Below, piece after piece: positions 12,549 to 57,489 of a stretch of 64,000 nt of DNA. The position numbers and the translations under genes are program-made. The notes beneath the pieces were generated by a model. That model was not told where the DNA came from. It ran no database searches and saw only the letters and a program-made list of their open reading frames with translations. This stretch comes from Emticicia agri (GTDB lineage Bacteria > Bacteroidota > Bacteroidia > Cytophagales > Spirosomataceae): positions 1 to 64,000 of the forward strand of contig NZ_SEWF01000013.1 of the NCBI RefSeq assembly GCF_004168285.1, written 5' to 3'. The first letter of the stretch is position 1, and the number at the start of each line of letters is the position of its first letter.

Positions 12549-13526
12549 TTATATCAACTGCTTCCAGGTACTCTTTATATAATTGTATTTAAGTGTACTT
12601 GGTAGTGCTTTCCAGAAGTATTTGTTGATTTCTACAGCAAAAGAAGGTTGCATGTAGCAATTAATTACACAACCTTCGCATTCTTTGAGTTTTCCTTCCA
12701 AGGCTACTATTTTCTGTACTTCGGCTGATTGGTATAAATTGTAAAGATTATTGTTGATAGTAAAGCTCTTGGTACCTAAATGATAGCATGGGAGTACCAA
12801 TTTGTTTTCAGGAGAGATAACTAAAGTGGTAGAAGCAGCTTTGCAAACGGGGTTATCCACATGGTTTCCACCATTCTGTCTAAGGCTGATGAAGGCTTCG
12901 TTCAGATAAACATTCTTTTGTTTACCCCACCATAGTAACTGATTAAGCGATTGTTCAGAAAGACTTCCGCCTGTTTGTACACTATTATAGTCGAATACAG
13001 GATTGAGTATCAAAACGAGGCCATTGGGTTGCGTAATTTCTTTCCACACCCGTTCTACCTTATCCACATTTTGTTCAAAAACTGTGAATAACACATCCGG
13101 TCTTTCACCTAATTTTCTGGCAATGGCTATTGATTCCATCACCTTATCAAAGCATTTTACCCCCCGTGAAAGGTTATGTTCTTCTTCATCAGGTGAATCT
13201 AAAGAGAAATGAAGCATATCCACTTTGTCTTTCAGTCGCTCGGCATATTTGGGGTAGAGTAAACAATTAGTCGTAACTGTGGTTATCATACCTGCCTTTT
13301 TTGCTTCAGCCAGTAGTATATCTAATTCACGATGCAGGAGAGGTTCGCCTCCGGTAAAGTCAATAACCTTTACCCCTAATTTTTTCAGGTCTCTGAGGTT
13401 TTCTCTGAAATTCTGGAGGGTAATATAAGGTGAGGGTTTCTCCCATATATCACAAAAACTACACGTAGCATTGCAGCGATACGTAACATAGTAATTGCAT
13501 AATACAGGATGCTTGATAAGTCTCAT
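12549..13526 (-). CDS. Radical SAM protein with C-terminal Cys cluster
   Basis: Radical SAM enzyme of 325 aa. The 4Fe-4S/SAM motif is CNATCSFC (Cys18, Cys22, Cys25), followed by DFTGGEPLL, the SAM-binding GGE motif. The C-terminal part has extra cysteines (CKAASTTLVI, PCYHLG, CEGCVINC) arranged like a SPASM/Twitch auxiliary cluster domain. The layout resembles HpnH- and MoaA-like proteins of broad function, so the reaction is not predictable. Two perfect DnaA-box 9-mers (12853-12861 and 13060-13068) fall inside this gene. It starts 55 bp after accD. Confidence 0.87.
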   Translation of the reverse strand: MRLIKHPVLCNYYVTYRCNATCSFCDIWEKPSPYITLQNFRENLRDLKKLGVKVIDFTGGEPLLHRELDILLAEAKKAGMITTVTTNCLLYPKYAERLKDKVDMLHFSLDSPDEEEHNLSRGVKCFDKVMESIAIARKLGERPDVLFTVFEQNVDKVERVWKEITQPNGLVLILNPVFDYNSVQTGGSLSEQSLNQLLWWGKQKNVYLNEAFISLRQNGGNHVDNPVCKAASTTLVISPENKLVLPCYHLGTKSFTINNNLYNLYQSAEVQKIVALEGKLKECEGCVINCYMQPSFAVEINKYFWKALPSTLKYNYIKSTWKQLI

Positions 13527-13581: not shown

Positions 13582-14424
13582 TTAAGCCAGCATTTTTAAA
13601 AGACTTGCTAATTTATCTTTTAAATCCTTTCTATCGACAATGAAATCAAGGAAGCCATGCTCTAAGATAAACTCTGCTGTCTGAAAACCTTTTGGCAATT
13701 CTTTACCGATGGTTTCTTTAATGACACGCGGCCCTGCAAATCCGATTAATGCCTGTGGTTCAGAGATATTAAAATCGCCTAACATAGCATAAGAAGCGGT
13801 TACACCTCCGGTTGTAGGGTCAGTCAATAATGATACATAAGGAATACCTGCTTCGGCTAATTGTGCTAATCGGGCAGAAGTTTTTGCCATCTGCATCAAT
13901 GAAAAACCTGCTTCCATCATTCTGGCACCTCCCGAACGTGAAATCATCAGGAAAGGAACTTTGTTTTTCAGGGCATATTCTATGGCTCTCGCTATTTTTT
14001 CTCCTACTACCGAACCCATAGACCCACCTATAAAACCAAAATCCATACAGGTAATTACAATATTAATATCTGACATTTTTCCGTATGCCGACCGGGCAGC
14101 ATCTTTTAAACCTGATTTTTTCTCGGTAGAACGTATTCTATCCGGATATGGTTTTGTATCGACAAAATGCAAGGGGTCGCCCGAACGCAGATTAGCGTCT
14201 AATTCAGTAAATTTTCCTTCATCGAATAATATAGTAAAATAGGCTTCAGAGCCGATTTTTTCGTGGTAGTTACAATGAATACATGTATAAGCATTATTTT
14301 TATGCTCACGCGTATGCATTGCTTTTTTACAGTTCGGACATTGATACCATAAACCATCTGGAGCTTCACGCTTCATTTCGGTTGGTGTCTGAATTCCTTT
14401 GACAGTGCGCTTAAACCAAGACAT
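13582..14424 (-). CDS. accD: Acetyl-CoA carboxylase carboxyltransferase beta AccD
   Basis: Beta subunit of the carboxyltransferase that moves CO2 from carboxybiotin to acetyl-CoA, making malonyl-CoA for fatty-acid synthesis. Length 280 aa. The N-terminal zinc ribbon uses Cys29, Cys32, Cys48 and Cys51. The crotonase-like core includes [12 protein letters not shown] and [17 protein letters not shown], with [13 protein letters not shown] near the end. accA is not in the window, which is usual where accA and accD are unlinked. Confidence 0.97.
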
Positions 14425-14565: not shown

Positions 14566-15840
14566 TTAAAACGTATTGATAATTCGTCCACTGGCATCCC
14601 GATAAGTCTTTCTTTCTATGTCATTATCGAAATACGTTTCTTCTTTTCGTCCATCCGGGTACAATCGTAGGGCCCTTCCAGTTTTCTTATTATTTTCTAC
14701 TTTTACAACCAGGCGCATATTATTATTGTAAATAAAATAACCTCTTTCATCGTTCATCATTCCATTTCTATACCTACCCACATACTTATCACCATTTTTG
14801 AAATAGTATGTTCCATTACCCTGATACTTGCCATTCTCAAAATTACCTACGTATTTTTTCTCCCCATCAGCATAATATTCAACTCCTCTGCCGTCACGTT
14901 TACCATTTTTCCACTCACCTTCATATCTTTCCTGTGTTCTTGTATTAATCATTTTTCCGAAACCATTTCCACAATCTCCTTCAAGACAAGCCGGATTACG
15001 TGAACTTACAGCAGAGTTATCCACAGTATTCGGGTCTATTCTGCCAACTTCAGGTGCTCCACTCATATTCCCATCGGTTCTTCTGATAGGATCAATAGGA
15101 TTATTCACATTTTTATCCACATTATCCACAATCACTGGTCTTGTTTCAGGTCTTTGTTGTGGTTGTGGTGGATATTGTACCTCAGGTAATTGTTTAGTTG
15201 GCGTTGAAGTAATCACACTTCCGTCGTTTTTCTTCACATTCGGGTATAACTCCTGCGCATTTCTGTATCCTTTCTCAATAGATGCTAAACGTCTGGTTCT
15301 TGGTGGGTGGGTACCTCCATCATAATCTGAAGTCAGTTTACTGATAGCAGCTTGTGCTTCTTTTAATGAGGCTCCCATCTGATACATCACAAATCCTGAA
15401 AATTCATCTGCTTCCAGTTCTTTTTGCGGGTCACTACCCCCTTCAATAATGGTATGTCCTTGTAAATGATGTCCTATTTCGTGGGCAAGTATGCTTAGTG
15501 CACCCCAGTCTGTTTTAGAAATATTATTGGCTTTTTGCATAAATGCTCCATCATATACAATTAAACGGGTTTGTCCGTTTACTGCGGCAAAGCAGTTATC
15601 TGTATTAGGGCATTCCATCACATAAAAATTCCTTTTTAATCCACTTCTGCGTACTATCTCATCTACTGCTTTCTCTGCTACTTCTTTAGAGCGAAAACTC
15701 ACCATGTTACAGATAGCCTTTTCGTTGATACGCTGACCATAGTAATTATAGCCAAAAGTTCTTGTTTGTTCAGATTGAGCATTTGCCACATAGGTCAATG
15801 TGCATAACATTGTGGACAATGTGAATAACCTACCTTTCAT
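14566..15840 (-). CDS. Exported zinc metallopeptidase with MORN repeats
   Basis: Secreted protein of 424 aa. A signal peptide ends near YVANAQ (residue 22). The zinc motif HEIGHH is at residues 120-125, with the downstream third-ligand region ELEADEF near 141-147, an M48-like arrangement. A low-complexity Asn/Asp/Pro linker spans about 200-290. The C-terminal third has MORN repeats (YEGEWKNGKRDGRGVEYY, YVGNFENGKYQGNGTYYF, YVGRYRNGM) that may bind cell wall or membrane. The metallopeptidase-MORN combination is uncommon. The linker codons for Val-Asp-Asn contain three perfect DnaA-box 9-mers. Substrate unknown; cell-wall or secreted-protein processing is possible. Confidence 0.83.
   Translation of the reverse strand: MKGRLFTLSTMLCTLTYVANAQSEQTRTFGYNYYGQRINEKAICNMVSFRSKEVAEKAVDEIVRRSGLKRNFYVMECPNTDNCFAAVNGQTRLIVYDGAFMQKANNISKTDWGALSILAHEIGHHLQGHTIIEGGSDPQKELEADEFSGFVMYQMGASLKEAQAAISKLTSDYDGGTHPPRTRRLASIEKGYRNAQELYPNVKKNDGSVITSTPTKQLPEVQYPPQPQQRPETRPVIVDNVDKNVNNPIDPIRRTDGNMSGAPEVGRIDPNTVDNSAVSSRNPACLEGDCGNGFGKMINTRTQERYEGEWKNGKRDGRGVEYYADGEKKYVGNFENGKYQGNGTYYFKNGDKYVGRYRNGMMNDERGYFIYNNNMRLVVKVENNKKTGRALRLYPDGRKEETYFDNDIERKTYRDASGRIINTF
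15101..15130 (+). promoter_or_regulatory. Three tandem DnaA boxes inside a coding linker
   Basis: TTATTCACA at 15101-15109 (one mismatch) is followed by two perfect, directly abutting TTATCCACA copies at 15113-15121 and 15122-15130. Another perfect copy is at 15017-15025. All lie within the low-complexity linker of the metallopeptidase gene, encoding Val-Asp-Asn/Lys residues. Confidence 0.55.
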
Positions 15841-15931
15841 GGTTTGATTTTTTGTTTAGCTTATATAGAAGAATAACGAGGAAAGTTCTTTTCAATAGGT
15901 ATGTTGAGGTTGACTTAACAATACTTTAACA

Positions 15932-15967
15932 AATAAGTCTCATAAGCCGGTGGTTATGAGACTTATT
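15932..15967 (-). terminator. Hairpin after the TPR gene
   Basis: Perfect 14-bp inverted repeat (15932-15945 with 15954-15967) with an 8-base loop, 24 bases after the TPR gene stop codon. The T-tail is weak (ATTTGTT), so termination efficiency is uncertain. Confidence 0.65.
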
Positions 15968-15990
15968 CACAGTATTAATGTGGAAAACCC

Positions 15991-17790
15991 TTAATTTATT
16001 GTATCGCCACGTAGATTTCTGAATCTTTTTCTGGCGTCGGCACTGTAGATGCTTCCAGGGAAATTCTGCAGGATTTGTCGGTACAAATCCATTGCTTTAT
16101 CTTTCTGGCCTAATTTCTCCTGATATATCTTTGCTTCGAGGTATAAAGCATCATCGGCCAGTATATCAAAGTTATAGTTTTTGCGTAATGCCTCTAAATC
16201 GTCTAAAGCCTTGTTAGGCTGGTTAATCTTAACATAGGTATTGGCACGTAACCAGAGGATTTCATCCGCTAAACTATGACTTTTGTATTTCTGGAAAGCA
16301 CTTTCCAGCGCAGCTATTGCTTCCTGGTTTTTATTCTGAAATAGTAATAAATCAATACTGGCATACTCGCGCATAGCGGCTTCAGATGTATCCAGGCCAA
16401 TGTTATCCTGAATGAGTAAACTTAGTTGCATGGCATCGTTGGCTATTTCACGGGTAGTAGCCTTTTTCAGAATATCCAGTACTTCTTTCGATAAGTCGAA
16501 ATCACCGTTGTAGTAATGAAGCTTTGCATTTTTCAGTTTAGCTTCTTGTCCGAGCATGTCTTCTTTCTGAGACTTTTCCACTTGCGAATACAATAGGGTT
16601 GCCTCCCATGGCTCGTTTCTCAGAATATAAATATCTCCTAAATCAAGTTTACATTTATCTCTGAAATTGCCATCTCCTCCGGCAATACTGATGGCTTTTT
16701 CAAGCACGGCAATGGCTGTATCTCTTTCGTTCAGATAAAAAGCATAGAGCTGTGCTGTATTGCGCATAGCTTCCATTGTTTTCTGATTCTGACCTAAATC
16801 TATGAAGAGGTTCTGGTAGTCTTTGATAAGCGTTCTGATAGAGGCTAAATCAACGGGATATGTGGTCTTAATGACTTCTTCTTTGCAGAAGATGGCATTA
16901 CGCCTGGCATAAGGGTAATACTGGCCTTGTGGATACTCTTTCATCACATATTCATACATCTGAATAGCGTTCTTGTAATCCTTATTCACCAGTGCAGTTT
17001 GCGCCAATTCAAAAACCCGTTGTCCTTCCAGTTTATATCTTCTGTCTAAAGCCCGGGTTTGCACAAAAGCCTTGTAAAACTCTTTCTGCTGAATCAAATG
17101 CCAGATAAGTATATCAGCATAGTATTGCTCGTTCGGAAACTTCTGTACCTTGCTGTAAAGCGTCTTTTCGAGCATATCTATTTCAGCATCGGTTTTCAGA
17201 TTATCCTGAAATGTTGCTTTTACGTAATCTGTGTTCCCTTCGGTCAGTCCATACTTCAGCATTTCATCAATCATCGGTTCTTTCTGGCCGTTATACAGAT
17301 AAGCCCGAGCAAAGAAGATGGCGTATTTATTATCGTCTTTGGCATTCTCTCTGCCTTTTTTCAATAACTGAATCACCTGCTCTGTTTTACTATTCCGATA
17401 CAGAAAATCCTGCATTTCATAAAGTGTCCCATCCGATTTTGCTGCAAGGTCAATCACATTGTTGAATTCTTTCTGAGCTTCGTCAACTTTTCCGGTCATT
17501 TCCAACAATAGTGCATAGTCTGCCTTATAAGTAATGATATTATCATTGGCTTTGATTTCACGTTTCAGAAATTTTTCGGCCTCGTCCCAGTTCTTTAATT
17601 TATAAAGCGTTTGCAGGTAATTAGTATGCACCAGCCTGACCGTATTTTTATCTTTCGACAACTTCACATAAATCTCTCTGGCTTTTTCATATTCTCCTTG
17701 TTTAAAATATTCATTGGCCAATTCAAGGTCTTGCGCCTTTAGACTTACTCCGATGAAAGTCATCACCACAAGTAATAGATACCTCTTCAT
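15991..17790 (-). CDS. Exported TPR-repeat protein
   Basis: Periplasmic tetratricopeptide protein of 599 aa. A signal peptide (MKRYLLLVVMTFIGVSLKAQ) precedes TPR motifs across the full length, such as LANEYFKQGEYEKAREIYVKL at residues 25-45 and a C-terminal AKIYQEKLGQKDKAMDLYRQIL block with NFPGSIYSADARKRF, typical of YbgF/Tol-Pal-like arrays. It probably acts as an envelope scaffold; partners are unknown. It lies immediately downstream of the DnaA-box-rich gene-free region, and transcription runs away from that region. Confidence 0.85.
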   Translation of the reverse strand: MKRYLLLVVMTFIGVSLKAQDLELANEYFKQGEYEKAREIYVKLSKDKNTVRLVHTNYLQTLYKLKNWDEAEKFLKREIKANDNIITYKADYALLLEMTGKVDEAQKEFNNVIDLAAKSDGTLYEMQDFLYRNSKTEQVIQLLKKGRENAKDDNKYAIFFARAYLYNGQKEPMIDEMLKYGLTEGNTDYVKATFQDNLKTDAEIDMLEKTLYSKVQKFPNEQYYADILIWHLIQQKEFYKAFVQTRALDRRYKLEGQRVFELAQTALVNKDYKNAIQMYEYVMKEYPQGQYYPYARRNAIFCKEEVIKTTYPVDLASIRTLIKDYQNLFIDLGQNQKTMEAMRNTAQLYAFYLNERDTAIAVLEKAISIAGGDGNFRDKCKLDLGDIYILRNEPWEATLLYSQVEKSQKEDMLGQEAKLKNAKLHYYNGDFDLSKEVLDILKKATTREIANDAMQLSLLIQDNIGLDTSEAAMREYASIDLLLFQNKNQEAIAALESAFQKYKSHSLADEILWLRANTYVKINQPNKALDDLEALRKNYNFDILADDALYLEAKIYQEKLGQKDKAMDLYRQILQNFPGSIYSADARKRFRNLRGDTIN

Positions 17791-18542
17791 GTCTTATAAA
17801 AAAAATAAAAATTAATTAATGTTTTATTGTTGTTTTAAATTGTTAGCCCTGTGGAAATGTGAATAAATATAACCTGTGGATAATGGGTTTCCAAGTATTC
17901 ACATAAATAATCTGTTTTTCCACAGTTTTAGTATACTCATCCACACTTATTTTATTGATAATCAATTCTGATACCACTTATTTACATTGGTTAAAAAATA
18001 TTTGTGTTGATAGCTTTATCTGTTATTCACACCATGTTTCCACGTTAATCCACTTGGTGTGAATTGAGGAAAAAGGCATAGTTTTGAGGTTATTCCACAG
18101 TTCTACTATTCTTTCCACGTACCCTGTTGTTTTCTCCACAAGCCATTCCACGTGGTAGTTCACATTCTACCTATCTTATCCACCTATTTGTCCACAGAAA
18201 TTTTTGGATATTTTTTATTTTGAATTGACCTTTTACTTTTTGTTGAAAGAACATATCCTCTGTGATTTTAATTATGATTCTAATGAGGTATTAGTATGGA
18301 TGGATGCGTAAAGAAAATGAGGTTTTTAAATGTGTATATTGTATAATTTAGCTTGTAGGTTTGAAAGTATTTGTTTGTCTAAATTACATTAATAGAGGAG
18401 TAAAGATTTTATAACCTTATATAAGGCTTAAGAAGTGGATACCCAACTTATGCAATGGTATTCAAAAATTCAGATTGGTTATAATAGTAACGATTAATGG
18501 AAGTAGCGTAATTATTAAAAAACGAGTGGCAGTAATATTAGA
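17791..18542. other. Candidate replication origin (oriC) region
   Basis: A 752-bp stretch with no gene. Between 17850 and 18196 it holds a dense set of DnaA-box-like 9-mers in both orientations. One is perfect (TGTGGATAA at 17875-17883). One-mismatch copies are at 17916-17924, 17937-17945, 18023-18031, 18132-18140, 18176-18184 and 18188-18196. Weaker ones are at 17850-17858, 17895-17903, 18045-18053 and 18091-18099. A CCACGTGG palindrome is at 18148-18155. A T-rich tract at 18199-18245 could be an unwinding element. The remainder, 18246-18542, shows nothing recognisable. Origin function is inferred from box clustering and from mnmG and parS-like sites nearby. Confidence 0.7.
17875..17883 (-). 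promoter_or_regulatory. Perfect DnaA box
   Basis: TGTGGATAA is the exact reverse complement of the consensus TTATCCACA. It is the only perfect copy in the gene-free region and is surrounded by one-mismatch copies. Confidence 0.75.
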
Positions 18543-19274
18543 TTAACAAGCGTAAGCAAATGTTATTAGTAATTTGCCTTCCTTTTTCCATCTTAGCCAA
18601 CCATTGTATTGAGCGTTTTGCGAAAAGCCACAGATAGCTTTTGATTCAATGTAAATCCAATCTCCTTTTATTTCGGTTGCAACAAAAAATAATTCCTCTT
18701 CCGAATTTTCGTAACCTAAACTTTTACTGTCTTCAATGGGTGAAACTCTGATAATGTCTTTTTTCGTATGAAAGTCTATCATTGTCCCGACTATGTGTTC
18801 TTTCCAGTTTTCAACCTTGAACAAAGTAGTGTCCAGAGATAGTTTTTTTGTAATAGATTTTGCTTCATCAATATAGATTTCAATAAAGTTGTCTTTAGAT
18901 TGGAGATATTCAAACTGAAAGATATGGTAGTCAGGCCAGAAGCCTTTAGGAGAAAAGTGATGCTTTTGGAAGAATTGTTTACTTTTATCAAAGTCTGACA
19001 GTCTGAATTCTTTATTTTGGAAATTTATTGAATCATTAAAAGGCACTATCTTCATAAAATCAGAACCATCACCATTAAAGATTTTAAACCCTTTTCTGAT
19101 ATTATCATCTGTATTTATAAAAGTAACCACTCCATTCGATTGAAAAAATTGACTCAAGGAATCCTTACTTAATATCAGAGCAGTATCTGATTTTAGATTG
19201 TCACCAGATAATTGTTGCTGGTTACATGAAACAATAATAACATTCATTAAAATCAGTAGATAGGAGAGTTTCAT
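18543..19274 (-). CDS. Uncharacterised lipoprotein
   Basis: Lipoprotein of 243 aa with signal MKLSYLLILMNVIIVSC; the lipidated Cys is residue 17. The mature part has no family I recognise. The last 80 residues, with VSPIEDSKSLGYENSEEELFFVATEIKGDWIYIE and NGWLRWKKEGKLL, resemble an SH3-like (bacterial SH3 / GW-type) beta barrel. This is weak evidence from pattern only. The gene lies 27 bp after the stop of the Ig-like lipoprotein gene on the same strand, so they may form an operon. Confidence 0.72.
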   Translation of the reverse strand: MKLSYLLILMNVIIVSCNQQQLSGDNLKSDTALILSKDSLSQFFQSNGVVTFINTDDNIRKGFKIFNGDGSDFMKIVPFNDSINFQNKEFRLSDFDKSKQFFQKHHFSPKGFWPDYHIFQFEYLQSKDNFIEIYIDEAKSITKKLSLDTTLFKVENWKEHIVGTMIDFHTKKDIIRVSPIEDSKSLGYENSEEELFFVATEIKGDWIYIESKAICGFSQNAQYNGWLRWKKEGKLLITFAYAC

Positions 19275-19301: not shown

Positions 19302-20933
19302 TCATTTATCAGATATAGGAACTTTAATTCCTCTTAGCTCGAAATTAGCTTTGACCCTTATTACTTCTTCTGAAAAATACACCTTCTCAGGTTCTATATC
19401 TTTTTCAACATTTCCATAATCCCATTGGCCATTACCGTTGGTATCTACAATAATTCTGAATAGGTATGCTCCGGGCCTCACATTGATAAAATTGAATTTG
19501 TTATCTTTTGTTTTTTGCTCTACTTCTATTGTGTAATTTTCATCTACTAACTGAACGATTTTATTCTCCTGATTTCCGTCAATCACGCCCTCAACAATTC
19601 CATAGTCCTCAGGTTTCAGAATTGGATTTCTTAAAACCATTGTCTCGCTTGAATCACCTTTAATATCCATAAATGCCCCTGTAAGAAATTCTAATTTTAT
19701 TTCTCTTGTGGCCGAAATGTCTTTAATGATTTTTAGTTGGGTTTTATAGGTGTTCCACATGAGTGCTTTGTCGTCTAATGGTTCGTTCTTTATTGTATCA
19801 CTTAATAATCTGATTTTAGTAAAATCGGTTTTCTCAATAGGTGTATCGAAGTATAAATCAAGAACAAGATTTTTTTCTACTGCTTCTCTCGTTTTAGGGT
19901 CTGTCTGAAAAGAGAAGTTATTAGACTTAGTTCTTCGTGTTGTGCGCCTTTCCTGATCTCTGAATTTGATTTTCTGCAAATGGGTCAACTCATTGTTGGC
20001 AGAGTCTCTTACAGTGATATTTACTTTAACCGTATCTGTTTTCAGTGGGATGTTGTAGAATTTAATCTCATTTCTTTGTGCCGAGTACGGAAGACTATCA
20101 GCAGGATTCACGAAAGAAATTTCATAAGTCTTGATATTTTTATCATAAATTACAGTAAAGTCTTCTACCCGTTGTAAGGTCTTCTGATTCTTCGGTTTAT
20201 CATTGTTAGCCATATATAAGGCCATGTTAATATTTGATATATTTGAGTCCAGTTTAATCGTATCTTTTATGAAAGCAATCATTTCTGATTTACTATCAAA
20301 TCGTAGATTACTATTCTTATCTGTATAGGCATATAATCTATACTTTCCCTTTTTGAGGTTTTCGAATTTAAAGTTGCCACTTGAATCAGATTTCAGGAAG
20401 TAGTTAGGTTTAGACTTTTTAAGGTCTAAAGAATCTCTTACTTCGTATAAGGAAACCTGAGCATCTAAGATAGGTTGATTGGTGAACAGATTTTTTATAT
20501 TTCCTTGTAATTCTAATGAATCAATTTTTGGCCCTGTACTAAAGGCTAATTTAAGGTTTTGAACTTCATTACGCTCGTTTAGGTCTTTTACACCTTTTTT
20601 AAAGTTGAGTGTATAAGTGGTACTATCTTTAAACGGTTTGTCAAACTTCAGTACTACACTATTGGATTTTGGTTTCACATCAAAATATCCATCCTGTTCA
20701 GGAATAACCACTAATTCCTGTCTTAGGCTTGTAACATCTATCAGTTCATCAAAATAGAGTTCTATCTGATTTCCTTTAAAATTGGTCTGCTTGTTGGCCG
20801 GAATAGATCTTACCAACTTCGGTGCAATCTCATCTTTCTTCCCTCCGGTTGGTGGTACAAACTGTGCACAACTCAATAATAAATTACAGGTAACTAAAAA
20901 CGCTACTATTCGATATAGATTTTTCTTTAACAT
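19302..20933 (-). CDS. Ig-like domain lipoprotein
   Basis: Lipoprotein of 543 aa with signal ending LLLSC (Cys22). Directly after comes PPTGGKKDEIAPKLVRSIPANKQTNFKGNQIELYFDE, the start of a bacterial Ig-like (SbsA/Ig_5-type) domain seen in a widespread Bacteroidota lipoprotein family. A second beta-rich domain near residues 160-210 (SGNFKFENLKKGKYRLYAYTDKN) resembles a carboxypeptidase-regulatory-like fold. A C-terminal stretch YLFRIIVDTNGNGQWDYGN repeats that pattern. Function unknown; an outer-membrane or surface structural role is likely. It sits between mnmG and the 243-aa lipoprotein, all on the minus strand. Confidence 0.8.
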   Translation of the reverse strand: MLKKNLYRIVAFLVTCNLLLSCAQFVPPTGGKKDEIAPKLVRSIPANKQTNFKGNQIELYFDELIDVTSLRQELVVIPEQDGYFDVKPKSNSVVLKFDKPFKDSTTYTLNFKKGVKDLNERNEVQNLKLAFSTGPKIDSLELQGNIKNLFTNQPILDAQVSLYEVRDSLDLKKSKPNYFLKSDSSGNFKFENLKKGKYRLYAYTDKNSNLRFDSKSEMIAFIKDTIKLDSNISNINMALYMANNDKPKNQKTLQRVEDFTVIYDKNIKTYEISFVNPADSLPYSAQRNEIKFYNIPLKTDTVKVNITVRDSANNELTHLQKIKFRDQERRTTRRTKSNNFSFQTDPKTREAVEKNLVLDLYFDTPIEKTDFTKIRLLSDTIKNEPLDDKALMWNTYKTQLKIIKDISATREIKLEFLTGAFMDIKGDSSETMVLRNPILKPEDYGIVEGVIDGNQENKIVQLVDENYTIEVEQKTKDNKFNFINVRPGAYLFRIIVDTNGNGQWDYGNVEKDIEPEKVYFSEEVIRVKANFELRGIKVPISDK

Positions 20934-21007: not shown

Positions 21008-22870
21008 TTATCGTCCGAGGTGTACCATCAGTACTGATATATCGGCGGGAGAAACTCCACTTATTCGTGAAGCTTGTCCTAATGTCTGCGGTTTCATCTT
21101 CTTTAATTTTTGTCTGGCTTCAATAGAAATTGAGGTGAGTTTGTCGTAATCAATAGTAGATACTATATTGAGGTTTTCCAGCTTCGCCATTTTCTCTGCC
21201 ATTAATAATTCTTTCTCAATATAACTTTCGTATTTCACATGTATTACCGCTTGCTCCAATACCTCCTCATCATAACTATCCATATAGGTTTTTATTTCAT
21301 CGCTAAGGTTTTTTATATCACCTAATTCTATTTCCGGTCTTTTCAAAATACTGTAATAGGATGATTTTTCTCTTAATCCGGCCGATTCTATTGATTCAAG
21401 AAAACCATTCGCCTGGTCTGGAGATATTTTCATTTCTTTCAATGCCTTTACCAGTTTTTCTGACTCCTCTCTTTTCTGAATCATTCTATCTAAACGACCC
21501 TGAGAAGCCAAGCCTAAATCATATCCTTTTTGGGTAAGGCGTATATCGGCATTGTCTTGTCTTAGAAGTGTTCGAAACTCTGCTCTTGAAGTAAACATAC
21601 GATAAGGCTCTTCTGTACCTTTATTTACCAAGTCGTCTATTAGTACGCCGATATATGCTTCATTACGTTTCAAGATAAAAGCCTCTTTTTCTTTTACTTT
21701 ATTATGTGCATTGATACCTGCTACCAATCCTTGACAAGCCGCCTCTTCATATCCCGTTGTTCCGTTGATTTGTCCGGCAAAGAAAAGGTTTTCAATCAGA
21801 TGCGTTTCTAAAGTCAGTTTAAGTTGGGTTGGAGGAAAAAAGTCGTATTCTATGGCATATCCCGGTCTGAACATCTTGGCATTTTTAAAGCCTGGTATTA
21901 ACCGTAATGCTTCATACTGAATATCTTCAGGCAAAGAGGTTGAGAAACCATTGATGTACATTTCAACGGTATTCCACCCTTCTGGTTCCACAAATATCTG
22001 GTGACGGTCTTTGTCGGCAAATCGGTTAATTTTATCTTCTACTGATGGGCAGTAACGAGGCCCTAAGCCTTTGATTCTGCCACTAAACATCGGAGACCTG
22101 TCAAAGCCTTTTCTGAGTGTTTGGTGTACCTGTTCATTGGTATAGGTTACATAACAACTTCTTTGTTTAGTTAATCTTGGGGTATCTGTATAAGAGAACT
22201 TTTCAGGATTTTCATCTCCTTTTTGTTCTTCCATTTCATTCCAGTCTAACGACCTTCCATCTACTCTTGGCGGTGTTCCGGTTTTCATCCTCCCGGATTC
22301 GAATCCTAACTCTATCAGTTGTTCGGTGATTCCATAGGCTGCTTTCTCCCCTGTTCTACCACCGCCAAAGGTTTTCTCTCCTATATGTATCTTCCCGTTC
22401 AGGAATGTACCATTGGTTAACACTACTGCCTTGCCTTTGATTTCAACGCCCATTGATGTTTTCACACCTATTACCCTTTTATCTTCTACAAGCACGCCAG
22501 TAGCCATATCTTGCCAAATATCAAGATTTGGGATACTTTCCAACGTATCTCTCCATTCTTGTGCAAATAGCATTCTATCACTTTGGCATCTTGGGCTCCA
22601 CATGGCAGGTCCTTTTGAGCGATTTAACATTCTGAACTGAATCATAGTCTTGTCACTAATGATTCCTGAATGGCCGCCTAAAGCGTCTATTTCACGAACT
22701 ATTTGTCCTTTTGCTACGCCCCCCATTGCCGGGTTACACGACATCTGCGCAATGGTTTGCATATTCATTGTTATCAATAGTGTAGATGAGCCCATAGTGG
22801 CTGCTGCAGATGCTGCTTCGCATCCGGCGTGTCCTGCCCCTACTACTATGACATCATATTCTGGAAACAT
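21008..22870 (-). CDS. mnmG: tRNA modification enzyme MnmG (GidA)
   Basis: FAD-dependent subunit that, with MnmE, installs the carboxymethylaminomethyl (or aminomethyl) group on wobble uridine 34 of tRNAs. Length 620 aa, the family norm. The FAD-binding [10 protein letters not shown] is at residues 11-20, and [20 protein letters not shown] and [12 protein letters not shown] (FAD site) are present. The C-terminal helical domain ends [24 protein letters not shown], the MnmE/tRNA-binding tail. Historically named gidA because it often flanks the chromosome origin. Two parS-like palindromes sit directly upstream and a candidate origin lies 3 kb downstream. Confidence 0.98.
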
Positions 22871-54141: not shown

Positions 54142-54801
54142 CTAAGCTAACTCCGCAATGACAGTCTCACCACCCACAGGACGGTCATCAATATTTACTA
54201 AGATTTTAGCATCAAGCGGTAAGAAAATATCAATTCTTGAACCGAATTTTATAAAACCAAATTCAGTACCTTGCTCTACTTTTTGCCCTTCTTTTACATA
54301 CCAGCATAAACGACGAGCCAAAGCCCCTGCTATCTGTCTGAAAAGTACTTCTGTACCATTGGCATGTTTTACTACAATGGTTGTTCTTTCGTTATCAGTA
54401 CTCGATTTCGGATGCCACGCAACCAGGTATTTTCCGGCATGATATTTAAAGTAAGAAACAATACCCGAAATAGGATTGAAATTGATATGCACATTGATAG
54501 GCGACATAAAGATAGATACTTGTCGGCGCGGTTCTTTGAAATACTCCGTTTCTACTACTTCCTCAATCACAACCACCTTTCCGTCGGCAGGAGCAATTAC
54601 GTGCTTTGAATTTACCGTGGTAGTGCGGGTAGGCTTGCGGAAGAATTGAAGAATAATAAACAAAAAAACAATACTGACACCAATGAGTACATTATGCACA
54701 AGAGTATTGTCCGGTACGAAGTAGCGCACTAACCCGTTAAGAATTACTAATGCAATAATTGTTAGAGAAATGGTTCCTGTACCCTCTTTATGTAGTGTCA
54801 T
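54142..54801 (-). CDS. psd: Phosphatidylserine decarboxylase
   Basis: Makes phosphatidylethanolamine from phosphatidylserine at the inner membrane. About 219 aa from ATG 54801, the short type of the family. Hydrophobic segments lie at residues about 8-53. The autocleavage site is the GS pair (Gly187-Ser188) in IKFGSRIDIF; cleavage turns Ser188 into the pyruvoyl cofactor. HVNF-type sequence (INVHINFNPISG) and KHANGTEVLFRQIAG are conserved. pssA is not nearby in the window. Confidence 0.94.
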   Translation of the reverse strand: MTLHKEGTGTISLTIIALVILNGLVRYFVPDNTLVHNVLIGVSIVFLFIILQFFRKPTRTTTVNSKHVIAPADGKVVVIEEVVETEYFKEPRRQVSIFMSPINVHINFNPISGIVSYFKYHAGKYLVAWHPKSSTDNERTTIVVKHANGTEVLFRQIAGALARRLCWYVKEGQKVEQGTEFGFIKFGSRIDIFLPLDAKILVNIDDRPVGGETVIAELA

Positions 54802-54887
54802 TTTTAATCTGCTGGTTTTTTGAACCACAAATATAATCAACGCAAAGATTTTGCGTTATCTTCACGGCTCAAATATTTATCATATTG

Positions 54888-54928
54888 TGTGAATAACCTG
54901 TGGATAAGTGGGTGTTTCACGTGGAAAA
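54888..54928. promoter_or_regulatory. DnaA box plus parS-like site before the TPR gene
   Basis: TGTGAATAA at 54888-54896 (one mismatch), a perfect reverse DnaA box TGTGGATAA at 54899-54907, and TGTTTCACGTGGAAAA at 54913-54928. The last is a parS-like 16-mer with one mismatch to the degenerate consensus TGTTnCACGTGnAACA. All three sit in the 140 bp between psd and the next gene. Confidence 0.55.
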
Positions 54929-54942
54929 CTTTCTAATCTTCT

Positions 54943-57489
54943 ATGTATCAATTGTTTTTTTGGCAGAACTGGTCTAAAACAGAGAAACTCATAAGCGTAT
55001 GTATTTTACTGATTCTGCTGTTTTCATTGGTGTTTTTAGGCTTCTATTGGTATCATGGTCTTGATAGTGTTATTCACTGGGACGTCTTGAGTGAATTAGA
55101 TGAAATACCTACAGTTACCAATAGTTTTTCAGACGGGCAATTGAAATACACCATTAACGGAAATGCCTATCTGGTAAAAGAGCGTTTTTTAGCCTCAAAA
55201 ATGGAAACCAATGTGGGGGCAACTTATATATTCTTAGGTTTATTTGTCATAGGGATTAATCTTTTACTATCGGCCTTTTCGGCTTTGCCCCGCTATTGGT
55301 TTTTAGGGGGTATGGTAGCTTTAGCTGGCGTATTCATTACATTCAGATTAGAAAATGTTTTTAATATTACTAATCAGGCAGGCTTTCTGGTGGCGTTTGC
55401 AGGCTTTGCAGGGTTAGCTTTTTATTTGAATAATTTTGCCACTAAAGCCAGTTTCATTAAAAGATTTACAGGTTTTCTGCTACTGACTATTATTGCTTTC
55501 TGGGTTATTCAGTCTTTCTCAAAAATAAGTCATCCATTCTTAGCACTTGCCTCGTATGGCTTATTGTCTGCTATCGTTTTTACCGTGCTGTTTGTGCTGC
55601 TCATCGCGCACGAAATTGTAGCTTCTTTGGTTTGGGTGGTTTCAAATTCAGGTATTAAGGGCAAAAGTTCACTAAATCAGTTCCTGATTGTTTCGAGTAT
55701 TTACTTATTAAATATCCTGCTGATATTCTTAGAAAGACACCAGTACATTGACTGGAATATTCTTGCTCTCAGCCCCATGGTATTATATATTATTTCAACA
55801 GTTCTGGGTATATGGGGTTTCAGAAATGTAAGCGAAGAATCTGATAGTTTCAATTTCAGAACCATCGGTGCCTGGTTATATCTGGGGCTGGCAATTATAG
55901 CTACGGCAACTATCAGTTTAGCATTTGCCACAGGTAATGACCCTCTGATTGATGCTTTTCAAAGTTTTATTATAGGTGTACATCTGGTAATGGGTTTTGC
56001 CTTTTTCTTGTATGTGATACTTAATTTTATACAAGCCATGCAGAAGGGTTTACCCATACATAGAATACTGTACAGACCACAATTTTTAGAACTGTCTCTC
56101 TTTCGTTTAGGGGCATTGGTGGGTATTGTTACATTGTTTTCGCTGAAGAATTTTTATATATACTATCAGGCAAATGCCGGGTACTATAACACGATTGCTG
56201 ATTTTTATAAGGCAAGTAATGATTTATCTTATGCCGAAGCCTTTTACAAAGAAGCTACCCATAACGATATTCGCAATCATAAGTCAAACTATGCTTTGGC
56301 TACTTTGGCTATGGAAGGAAACGATAAAAACAATACAGGAGCATTTCTGAAAAACGCTTTAGAGAAAAACCCAAGCCCTTATGCTTACGCAGGATTAAGT
56401 AAGGTTCTGCAGGAAAAGGATATGTTTTTTGATGCCTTGTTTACGCTACAAGAAGGTGTTCGGAAATTCCCGGCTAATCAACAGCTATTAACTAATTTAG
56501 CCTGGCTATATGAAAAAACTAAAGTAACAGACTCGACCTTATTTTATCTTAATAAAGCCAAAGAAAACTGTACAGATTGCGATTTGGCTGATGCCAATCT
56601 GTTGGCTTATCGTCTGAAATATGCTAAAGCTGATACGCTGAAAAACCAAGCAGAAGAAAAAAACAGTATATCTATTACCCTTTTAGCTAATCAATCAGCT
56701 AAAAGGATAAATGAGATAAGTACGGCAACACTAAAATTGGGAAGTGATTCGGCATTGAACGTGAGTCAATTTGCGTTGATTTATAACCATACTACAGCAG
56801 CCACCGAAAAGTCGCTTTTGTCGGGCAAAGATTTACAGAAAATTCAACAAAAATCAGCCAATCAGGGCTTTTATGAAGATTTAGAGTTTGCCATTGCTTC
56901 TCAGAATTATTACAGAGAAAATAAAATAGAAGGATTGAAGCAGTTAACGATACTTGCCAACGATTCAACCAGAAAAAAGCAATTATACAATCAGGTTGTG
57001 GGTATGTGGTATTTGCAACAGGGGGTATTTGATAAAGCCATCGTACACCTGACAAGAGCAGGTGATAAAGCCTCTGCCGAGGTCTTGCAGAAACAGGATT
57101 ATGTGATTTCTATCCCAGAGTACCAACAGGCACAGGCAGAAGAGTTGTTAAAAAATGCCAGAACCAAAGCGGATTTTGATAAGGCACTTAGCAGAAGCCC
57201 TTTGAATCCTGTGCTCATCAGTAAAACATTAGATTTTTATAATACAAAATTGAACAAGCCTAATGAGGCATACAATCTTGTTTTCAATGCCTTGCAGGTA
57301 AACGATAACAGTGTTGAACTCTGGAAATTGTATGTATTACAATCTTTAAAAGTCGGGGTAGAAAATTATGCCGAAGAGGGGCTTGAAAAAATTCGTTTAC
57401 TGGCAAGCGCTACCGATTACCAAGCGTTTCTTTCCACCTATCAAGCCCAAAAAGCATTGATGGAAAAAAGCAAGGTTGGTTTTGAATGA
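54943..57489 (+). CDS. Membrane protein with C-terminal TPR array
   Basis: Protein of 848 aa. About 10 membrane segments fill the first 400 residues, beginning with LISVCILLILLFSLVFLGFYW. The C-terminal half, from about residue 405, is made of TPR-like helix pairs (ADFYKASNDLSYAEAFYKEAT, YAYAGLSKVLQEKDMFFDALFTLQEG). I do not recognise a named family. The layout suggests an envelope scaffold or assembly factor. The short upstream region carries a DnaA box and a parS-like site, unusual for a structural gene. It is followed after 81 bp by an ABC ATPase gene on the same strand. Confidence 0.8.
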   Translation: MYQLFFWQNWSKTEKLISVCILLILLFSLVFLGFYWYHGLDSVIHWDVLSELDEIPTVTNSFSDGQLKYTINGNAYLVKERFLASKMETNVGATYIFLGLFVIGINLLLSAFSALPRYWFLGGMVALAGVFITFRLENVFNITNQAGFLVAFAGFAGLAFYLNNFATKASFIKRFTGFLLLTIIAFWVIQSFSKISHPFLALASYGLLSAIVFTVLFVLLIAHEIVASLVWVVSNSGIKGKSSLNQFLIVSSIYLLNILLIFLERHQYIDWNILALSPMVLYIISTVLGIWGFRNVSEESDSFNFRTIGAWLYLGLAIIATATISLAFATGNDPLIDAFQSFIIGVHLVMGFAFFLYVILNFIQAMQKGLPIHRILYRPQFLELSLFRLGALVGIVTLFSLKNFYIYYQANAGYYNTIADFYKASNDLSYAEAFYKEATHNDIRNHKSNYALATLAMEGNDKNNTGAFLKNALEKNPSPYAYAGLSKVLQEKDMFFDALFTLQEGVRKFPANQQLLTNLAWLYEKTKVTDSTLFYLNKAKENCTDCDLADANLLAYRLKYAKADTLKNQAEEKNSISITLLANQSAKRINEISTATLKLGSDSALNVSQFALIYNHTTAATEKSLLSGKDLQKIQQKSANQGFYEDLEFAIASQNYYRENKIEGLKQLTILANDSTRKKQLYNQVVGMWYLQQGVFDKAIVHLTRAGDKASAEVLQKQDYVISIPEYQQAQAEELLKNARTKADFDKALSRSPLNPVLISKTLDFYNTKLNKPNEAYNLVFNALQVNDNSVELWKLYVLQSLKVGVENYAEEGLEKIRLLASATDYQAFLSTYQAQKALMEKSKVGFE

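Follow-up and report, generated by a model that had tools for sequence, protein, structure and literature searches.

Introduction

The locus described here has its closest counterparts in the replication origins of bacteria and in clusters of DnaA boxes lying outside them. In Bacillus subtilis the joint deletion of six oriC-proximal DnaA-box clusters (DBCs) is reported to lead to early initiation, although the same review also states that no clusters with significant roles have been identified in this organism (PMC5295017). For Escherichia coli and Salmonella, boxes near oriC are described as denser than permuted words, and DnaA titration is proposed (PMC12371093). The E. coli locus datA, a non-origin box cluster controlling DnaA, is characterized as non-coding (PMC12371093) and as working with IHF (PMC13036160).

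We have analyzed a window of 64,000 nucleotides (64 kb), corresponding to positions 1-64000 of contig C13 in the 174-contig, 6.65-Mb draft genome of Emticicia agri, to which all coordinates refer unless another record is named. In our reading, its intergenic part is an ordinary oriC. It shares with bacterial origins the presence of intergenic boxes in both orientations, an unstable AT-rich edge, a nearby skew minimum in a congener and the proximity of mnmG, and it differs in the absence of linkage to dnaA, which in the congener lies at a distance of 1.77 Mb, and of a DnaA-trio tract above chance. The neighbouring genes also contain arrays of boxes which, like the B. subtilis DBCs, are box clusters outside the origin. 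Unlike these, the Emticicia arrays lie at most 5 kb from oriC, inside reading frames, with boxes above codon expectation. They also differ from the enrichment in E. coli and Salmonella, which is a broad gradient over centisomes, whereas the arrays are compact and sit in specific genes. The likeness to datA, as regards the control of DnaA, is putative in Emticicia, and datA is non-coding and characterized by IHF-dependent hydrolysis of ATP-DnaA whereas the arrays are coding. In the open-access literature searched we found no description of arrays inside genes with codon-level constraint, and no paper on the Emticicia replication origin.

A DnaA-box cluster in the gene-free stretch

Between the gene of a TPR protein (15991-17790, minus strand), which serves as family marker of the origin, and a 243-aa ORF on the other side, there is a gene-free stretch of 752 bp (17791-18542, with ORFs of at least 100 aa counted as genes), as the initial annotation had reported. 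One perfect and at least six one-mismatch DnaA boxes had been claimed there within 350 bp; the count amounts to one perfect and seven one-mismatch boxes in both orientations, starting at 17858 and 17875 on the minus strand and at 17916, 17937, 18023, 18132, 18176 and 18188 on the plus strand. This cluster of eight boxes with at most one mismatch (17858-18196), which we assessed by its count against chance, by alignment within the genus and by recurrence in the family, is the densest 350 bp of the window (25-bp steps), the average over the 64 kb being 0.23 boxes per 350-bp window.

Perfect copies of TTATCCACA in the window number seven and were all recovered at the positions previously annotated (12853, 13060, 15017, 15113, 15122, 17875 and 54899), against a shuffle mean of 0.63; the shuffles reached at most 3 copies, with seven or more in none of 100. 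The word TTATNCACA occurs 18 times against 3.71 expected, and at least 18 copies were found in 0/100 shuffles. The grouping of six of the perfect copies between 12.8 and 17.9 kb also held, the whole 6.65-Mb genome containing 65 perfect boxes. These copies had been taken as signal of an origin cluster, which the counts favour, but most of them sit in separate arrays embedded in coding sequence and recurring in congeners: five of the six are coding, those at 12853 and 13060 in a radical-SAM gene and those at 15017, 15113 and 15122 in an M48/MORN gene. The box count also gave a pair of boxes, both with one mismatch, between the TPR and M48 genes (15963-15987).

Conservation in the genus and the family

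Of 101 family genomes, own genome included, 95 contain a match to the TPR gene, six of these matches being partial at 33-34% identity. Apart from the own genome, six of the family genomes sampled belong to Emticicia. The nearest named record with the TPR gene is Emticicia sp. C21 (95% identity), and nine records with the gene comprise six Emticicia, two Cytophagaceae bacterium MAGs and one Arcicella rosea. We took the best 30 of the 95 loci, 29 of which have upstream sequence, among them the own window and six congeners. All 29 of these best-scoring loci contain 4-18 boxes (at most one mismatch) in the 900 bp preceding the TPR gene. They add up to 211, whereas 40 permuted words yield 11 on average and 35 at most, and the opposite 900-bp ends of the same loci contain 64 boxes. 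Over the cluster, nine genus loci, window included, align with long invariant blocks. Conservation of the kind expected of an oriC is therefore found in relatives, and is weak in the genome G073, outside the 29-locus set, where the 1-kb stretch preceding the TPR gene has only 2 boxes; nine other non-Emticicia loci have 4-18 boxes in the same interval.

Elements inside the probable origin region

According to nearest-neighbour stability, the AT-rich segment at 17795-17844 is a candidate DNA unwinding element adjoining the boxes, having the third-lowest stability among non-overlapping 50-bp segments of the 135-kb contig. The signal is weaker when 100-bp segments are used, as the minimum of the locus is then at 18323, ninth in the contig, and the 17795 site is not among the least stable. 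Because the ranking shifts between the two lengths, duplex instability alone is not specific.

Beside this segment, a Gibbs search identified a core motif, aTTAg..CTGTGGATATGTGGATAA.TTTT, with two minus-strand DnaA boxes (17842-17871, plus strand), which scores 24.1 bits versus 11.6-12.2 bits in five Markov controls. The search comprised 430-bp stretches from 23 of the 29 loci, after dropping 6 near-duplicates, with one site per sequence forced; it was used instead of a 700-bp search, which had picked up a motif inside the end of the adjacent reading frame and was discarded. Across the family loci the core motif is positioned approximately 40-140 bp from the TPR start, and it may resemble the left edge of the E. 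coli oriC.

A DnaA box with six NTN triplets immediately after it (17937-17963, plus strand), in a block conserved in the genus, was considered as a possible DnaA-trio tract. In our reading of the BUS rule, a box plus at least three DnaA-trios within 16 bp (PMC8287927), the run satisfies it, yet a run of at least six is found in 61 of 300 shuffles, and the tract is not above chance; at four other loci the trio run was matched by 70, 81, 96 and 151 of 300 shuffles. Since trio runs do no better than shuffles, the segment at 17795-17844 beside the core would be the preferred melting site among the candidates. At the right edge of the cluster, a conserved T-rich block (18206-18234), which could be a promoter or a second AT-rich element, is identical in 7 of 9 genus rows, the two exceptions being C1MAG, where it is altered, and 21SJ11W-3, where it has diverged.

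Skew, dnaA and the probable position of the origin

Because the own genome is a draft of 174 contigs, GC skew was determined in a complete congener, Emticicia sp. 21SJ11W-3 (G062; NZ_CP092074.1, 5,177,490 bp). Sampled as 100 blocks of 20 kb, or about 40% of the chromosome, its cumulative GC skew has a maximum at ~2.85 Mb and a minimum in the last block (5157491-5177490), which holds the homologous cluster. At fine scale, over a contiguous 175 kb, the minimum lies 459 bp past the record start, approximately 13 kb from the cluster, and with gene strand included as a covariate the fitted origin falls in the interval from 5.10 Mb to 0 (R2 0.73). The skew minimum which the initial annotation had proposed to look for is present near the homologous cluster of the congener, but in the own contig it falls at 72 kb and not at 18 kb. 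This distance of 54 kb from the cluster counts against the oriC reading; the genes around that minimum are strongly strand-biased, and the cumulative skew of the window or the own contig alone was dismissed as a locator. The caution that co-orientation with replication fails to the right of the cluster was correct, as the genes and the local skew on that side are not leading-strand-like. In the complete genome G073, of another genus, the skew maximum is at 0.81-0.91 Mb of 4.06 Mb (20 blocks, first 1.95 Mb only); its antipode is therefore at ~2.84-2.94 Mb and spans the TPR gene at 2.88 Mb.

Linkage of oriC to dnaA, which is common though not required, is absent. A box cluster of equal density near dnaA would have spoken against the candidate, and none was found: the own dnaA is on another contig (C94, 8 kb), which has no cluster and 1 one-mismatch box; the dnaA of 21SJ11W-3, at 3.39 Mb and 1.77 Mb from the homologous cluster, has no box in its 3.5-kb locus; and 13 other dnaA loci (2.5-3.5 kb) have 0-3 one-mismatch boxes. 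The own DnaA keeps the GGRDHSTV-type domain IV, which is in line with the oriC call. In this family dnaA is a misleading guide to the origin: in two complete genomes, G073 and G021, it sits at the record start, in G073 at base 474, while the TPR gene of G073 is at 2.88 Mb. A plasmid-like origin was also considered and rejected, the interval 17791-18200 having no match in 72,556 plasmid records.

The candidate chromosomal origin put forward in the initial annotation is supported by the cluster, its recurrence, the core motif and the skew of the congener. Computation gives directly the cluster and its conservation, as well as a site near the skew minimum of the congener, and from these sequence comparisons we consider it very likely that 17795-18196 is the oriC of this Emticicia genome. 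This provides a precise and testable oriC for Emticicia and, with the TPR gene as marker, a candidate for many members of the family. The contrary proposal, that the intergenic cluster is a titration or regulatory site and that replication starts at another place, some tens of kb away at most, could draw on the two displaced skew minima (13 kb in the congener, 54 kb in the own contig). We judge it highly improbable, as in the 175 kb around the minimum of the congener only the cluster and one of the coding arrays (array B, see below) exceed 3 boxes per 400 bp, no site of the own 135-kb contig beyond the interval 15.0-18.2 kb is above that value, and the cluster and core motif recur across the family. 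In fact, within the 2.10 Mb of the congener examined, the homologous cluster is the densest site (8 boxes per 400 bp), array B is second (5) and the remainder have 3 or fewer.

Box arrays inside the neighbouring genes

The gene of the M48-peptidase/MORN protein (14566-15840, minus strand) carries two arrays. Array A (15799-15828, minus strand) consists of three boxes with spacings of 9 and 12, in the codons of a signal peptide predicted by eye, and array B (15101-15130, plus strand) of three boxes, two of them perfect, in the linker, with an outlying perfect box at 15017-15025 (plus strand). In the radical-SAM gene (12549-13526, minus strand), array D (13060-13091) combines the perfect box at 13060 on the plus strand with TTATTCACA at 13083 on the minus strand, and a further perfect box is at 12853-12861 (plus strand). 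The offsets from the TPR start in the window are +1962, +1971 and +1983 for A, +2660, +2669, +2681 and +2765 for B, and +4699, +4722 and +4929 for D. The three arrays recur across the genus, with losses in some species; the radical-SAM gene has no box in 21SJ11W-3 and only one, with one mismatch, in L048. Boxes 1 and 3 of array A fit TTATNCACA in 8 of 8 genes, varying only at N, a base at which the encoded residue switches among Phe, Cys and Ser, and the middle box is lost (more than one mismatch) in 2 of the 8.

The contribution of codon choice was evaluated by synonymous resampling, with codon frequencies estimated from the genes of the respective locus. The 8 M48 genes contain 67 boxes versus 18.5 upon resampling (maximum 33; 0/500), the 9 radical-SAM genes 17 versus 7.2 (0/500) and the TPR gene, pooled over the genus, 15 versus 6.0 (0/500), pooled counts which overstate independence because the rows of one genus are related. 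No box excess resulted from the same resampling for accD (13582-14424, minus strand), which is an internal control, or for the Big_5, mnmG (8 genes, one with another start being left out) and DUF4175 genes. In the window alone, M48 has 7 boxes versus 2.1 (2/3000), the radical-SAM gene is marginal (96/3000; 58/3000 for perfect boxes) and the TPR gene is not raised (1387/3000).

Codon conservation was analyzed in two manners. In a first test on M48, 10 of 14 amino-acid-invariant box columns keep a single codon, against 41 of 214 other columns (Fisher 7e-5). However, the columns were chosen by the presence of boxes in at least 60% of rows, a choice by which the test leans to conservation by construction, and it was replaced by a weaker clade-split test. 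When boxes are defined from the window and codons compared in five distant M48 genes, the proportions are 9/14 versus 114/311 (P 0.048), and with boxes from the five distant genes and codons in three near ones they are 32/39 versus 160/302 (P 5e-4). For radical-SAM the corresponding values are 3/6 versus 83/247 (P 0.41) and, in the other direction, 8/15 versus 69/248 (P 0.044). In terms of codons, these results make a fair case for M48 and a weak one for radical-SAM. Box clusters outside oriC which appear to be kept by selection, as would be expected of a DnaA sink, are found in the M48 arrays.

A related picture resulted from ten loci outside Emticicia, those of nine genomes and of Arcicella rosea. 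Box counts on the TPR side are raised for 2-4 kb in G089, G004, G026, G048, G001 and Arcicella, slightly in G034, and not in G021, G045 and G073. Codon resampling over 54 ORFs, uncorrected for this number, gives an excess in the TPR gene of G089, G004, G001 and Arcicella (0/400 each), in the gene after it in G026 and G048 (0/400 each), and in the gene across the origin in G021 and G001 (0/400), G045 (2/400) and Arcicella (4/400). This survey indicates that the array habit is common, neither universal nor one-sided, and that the carrier genes vary.

Array B in a congener lacking the M48 gene

The M48 protein was matched in 9 of 11 genus genomes, own included, and is absent from 21SJ11W-3 and G101. 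In 21SJ11W-3 the interval between the TPR gene and accD, which is the site of the M48 gene elsewhere, has no long open frame; within this non-coding DNA array B is present with 33 of 34 bases kept, and the other clear similarities to the M48 region of the window are in its flanks, namely a stem-loop that follows the TPR gene and the accD upstream region. Because more distant congeners possess the M48 gene, its loss in 21SJ11W-3 would be the simplest history. The perfect 18-mer formed by two abutting boxes is found in 5 of the 11 genus genomes, in one copy each and always at the same locus. Array B without its gene seems to be the strongest sign of selection acting on the DNA and not on the protein. 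Altogether, we consider it probable that the coding arrays are kept as DNA, with good confidence for M48 and with less for radical-SAM.

A possible role of the arrays and its alternatives

In the mechanism that we propose, DnaA would bind the box cluster and melt the AT-rich segment at 17795-17844 beside the conserved core, and forks would leave oriC both ways, with dnaA not adjoining. Located 2-5 kb to the left, the M48 and radical-SAM arrays would belong to the control region of oriC, most likely as origin-proximal DnaA sinks which, being doubled just after initiation, would capture free DnaA and help to prevent re-initiation. The excess of boxes over codon expectation is observed; that DnaA titration is the function of the arrays we infer with about equal weight for and against. 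Selection on the array sites would also shape the codons and, in part, the protein sequence of the carrier genes. It is an evenly balanced proposal that the origin-adjacent genes hold a second, overlapping code, in which putative DnaA-sink arrays fix codons, choose amino acids and can outlive their genes, with other genera placing excess boxes in other origin-proximal genes (TPR and its neighbours). The choice of amino acids is suggested by the M48 signal peptide, where Phe, Cys and Ser replace one another and TTATNCACA is retained each time.

The main rival to titration is a split origin, in which the coding arrays would be the second half of a bipartite oriC, looping to the intergenic half and needed for melting. 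In its favour, arrays A and B of the genus are found on one and the same side of the TPR start, at a distance of 2.0-2.8 kb, array D is at ~4.7-4.9 kb in several species, and 6 of 10 loci of other genera have raised counts on the TPR side. The oriC of B. subtilis, moreover, consists of two parts around dnaA and forms loops (PMC5295017), and a distal box there is considered to act via a loop at distances of up to 462 bp (PMC6669920). But the left-hand wing is missing in 3 of the 10 other loci (G021, G045 and G073), array D is missing in 21SJ11W-3, and the excess is found on the other side too in G021, G045, G001 and Arcicella, so that we regard the split origin as possible with a chance of roughly one in four.

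Less probable still is that protein motifs (L-x-T, VDN/VDK repeats), together with base composition, gave rise to the coding boxes as a by-product. Indeed, VDN and VDK codons are naturally near TGTGGATAA, the resampled M48 genes still yield 18.5 boxes, and the radical-SAM signal is weak in the single-genome and clade tests; on the other hand, the 67 boxes observed in M48 are far beyond the maximum of 33 in 500 simulations, the M48 box codons vary less in the other clade, and array B persists without its gene. That same persistence in 21SJ11W-3 also argues against the arrays being a means by which DnaA controls transcription of the M48 and radical-SAM genes, unrelated to the control of initiation, a proposal to which only the position of array A at the 5' end of the M48 gene lends itself; arrays B and D are within reading frames and not at promoters, and the excess boxes of other genera sit in different genes, which makes transcriptional control improbable, somewhat more so than the by-product account. 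Returning to titration, the coding arrays offer a natural test, as synonymous recoding would remove them and leave the protein untouched, and a natural isolate has array B without its gene.

Neighbouring genes and additional observations

To the right of the origin, the 243-aa ORF (18543-19274), which has no Pfam or NCBIfam match, precedes the Big_5 protein gene (19302-20933); the place of this ORF is occupied by no listed ORF of at least 150 aa in the eight other genus loci. The mnmG gene (gidA), an origin neighbour that had been annotated about 3 kb from the cluster, is accordingly at 21008-22870 (minus strand) and contains no boxes. Searches of the window gave no RNA family at gathering threshold and no tRNA. 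Downstream of the TPR gene, a stem-loop with GAGTCTCATAA at 15928-15969, kept in the relative without the M48 gene, is probably the TPR terminator. Among the 95 matched genomes there are 19 whose contig ends 3.3-3.7 kb away from the TPR gene, downstream of it, which suggests that a repeat (perhaps an rRNA operon) is beside the origin in those 19 genomes.

Perfect TTATCCACA is rarer than the reversed word in the own genome (65 versus 101), and because of this scarcity boxes may be avoided there away from the origin; 21SJ11W-3 behaves likewise (40 versus 60), and the pattern fails in some of nine relatives checked. At the far end of the window, TTATTCACA and TTATCCACA are separated by 2 bp at 54888-54907, in a short intergenic gap between a phosphatidylserine decarboxylase gene (54142-54840, minus strand) and an 848-aa ORF (54943-57489, plus strand) without Pfam or NCBIfam match, and this site is possibly a DnaA-regulated divergent promoter.
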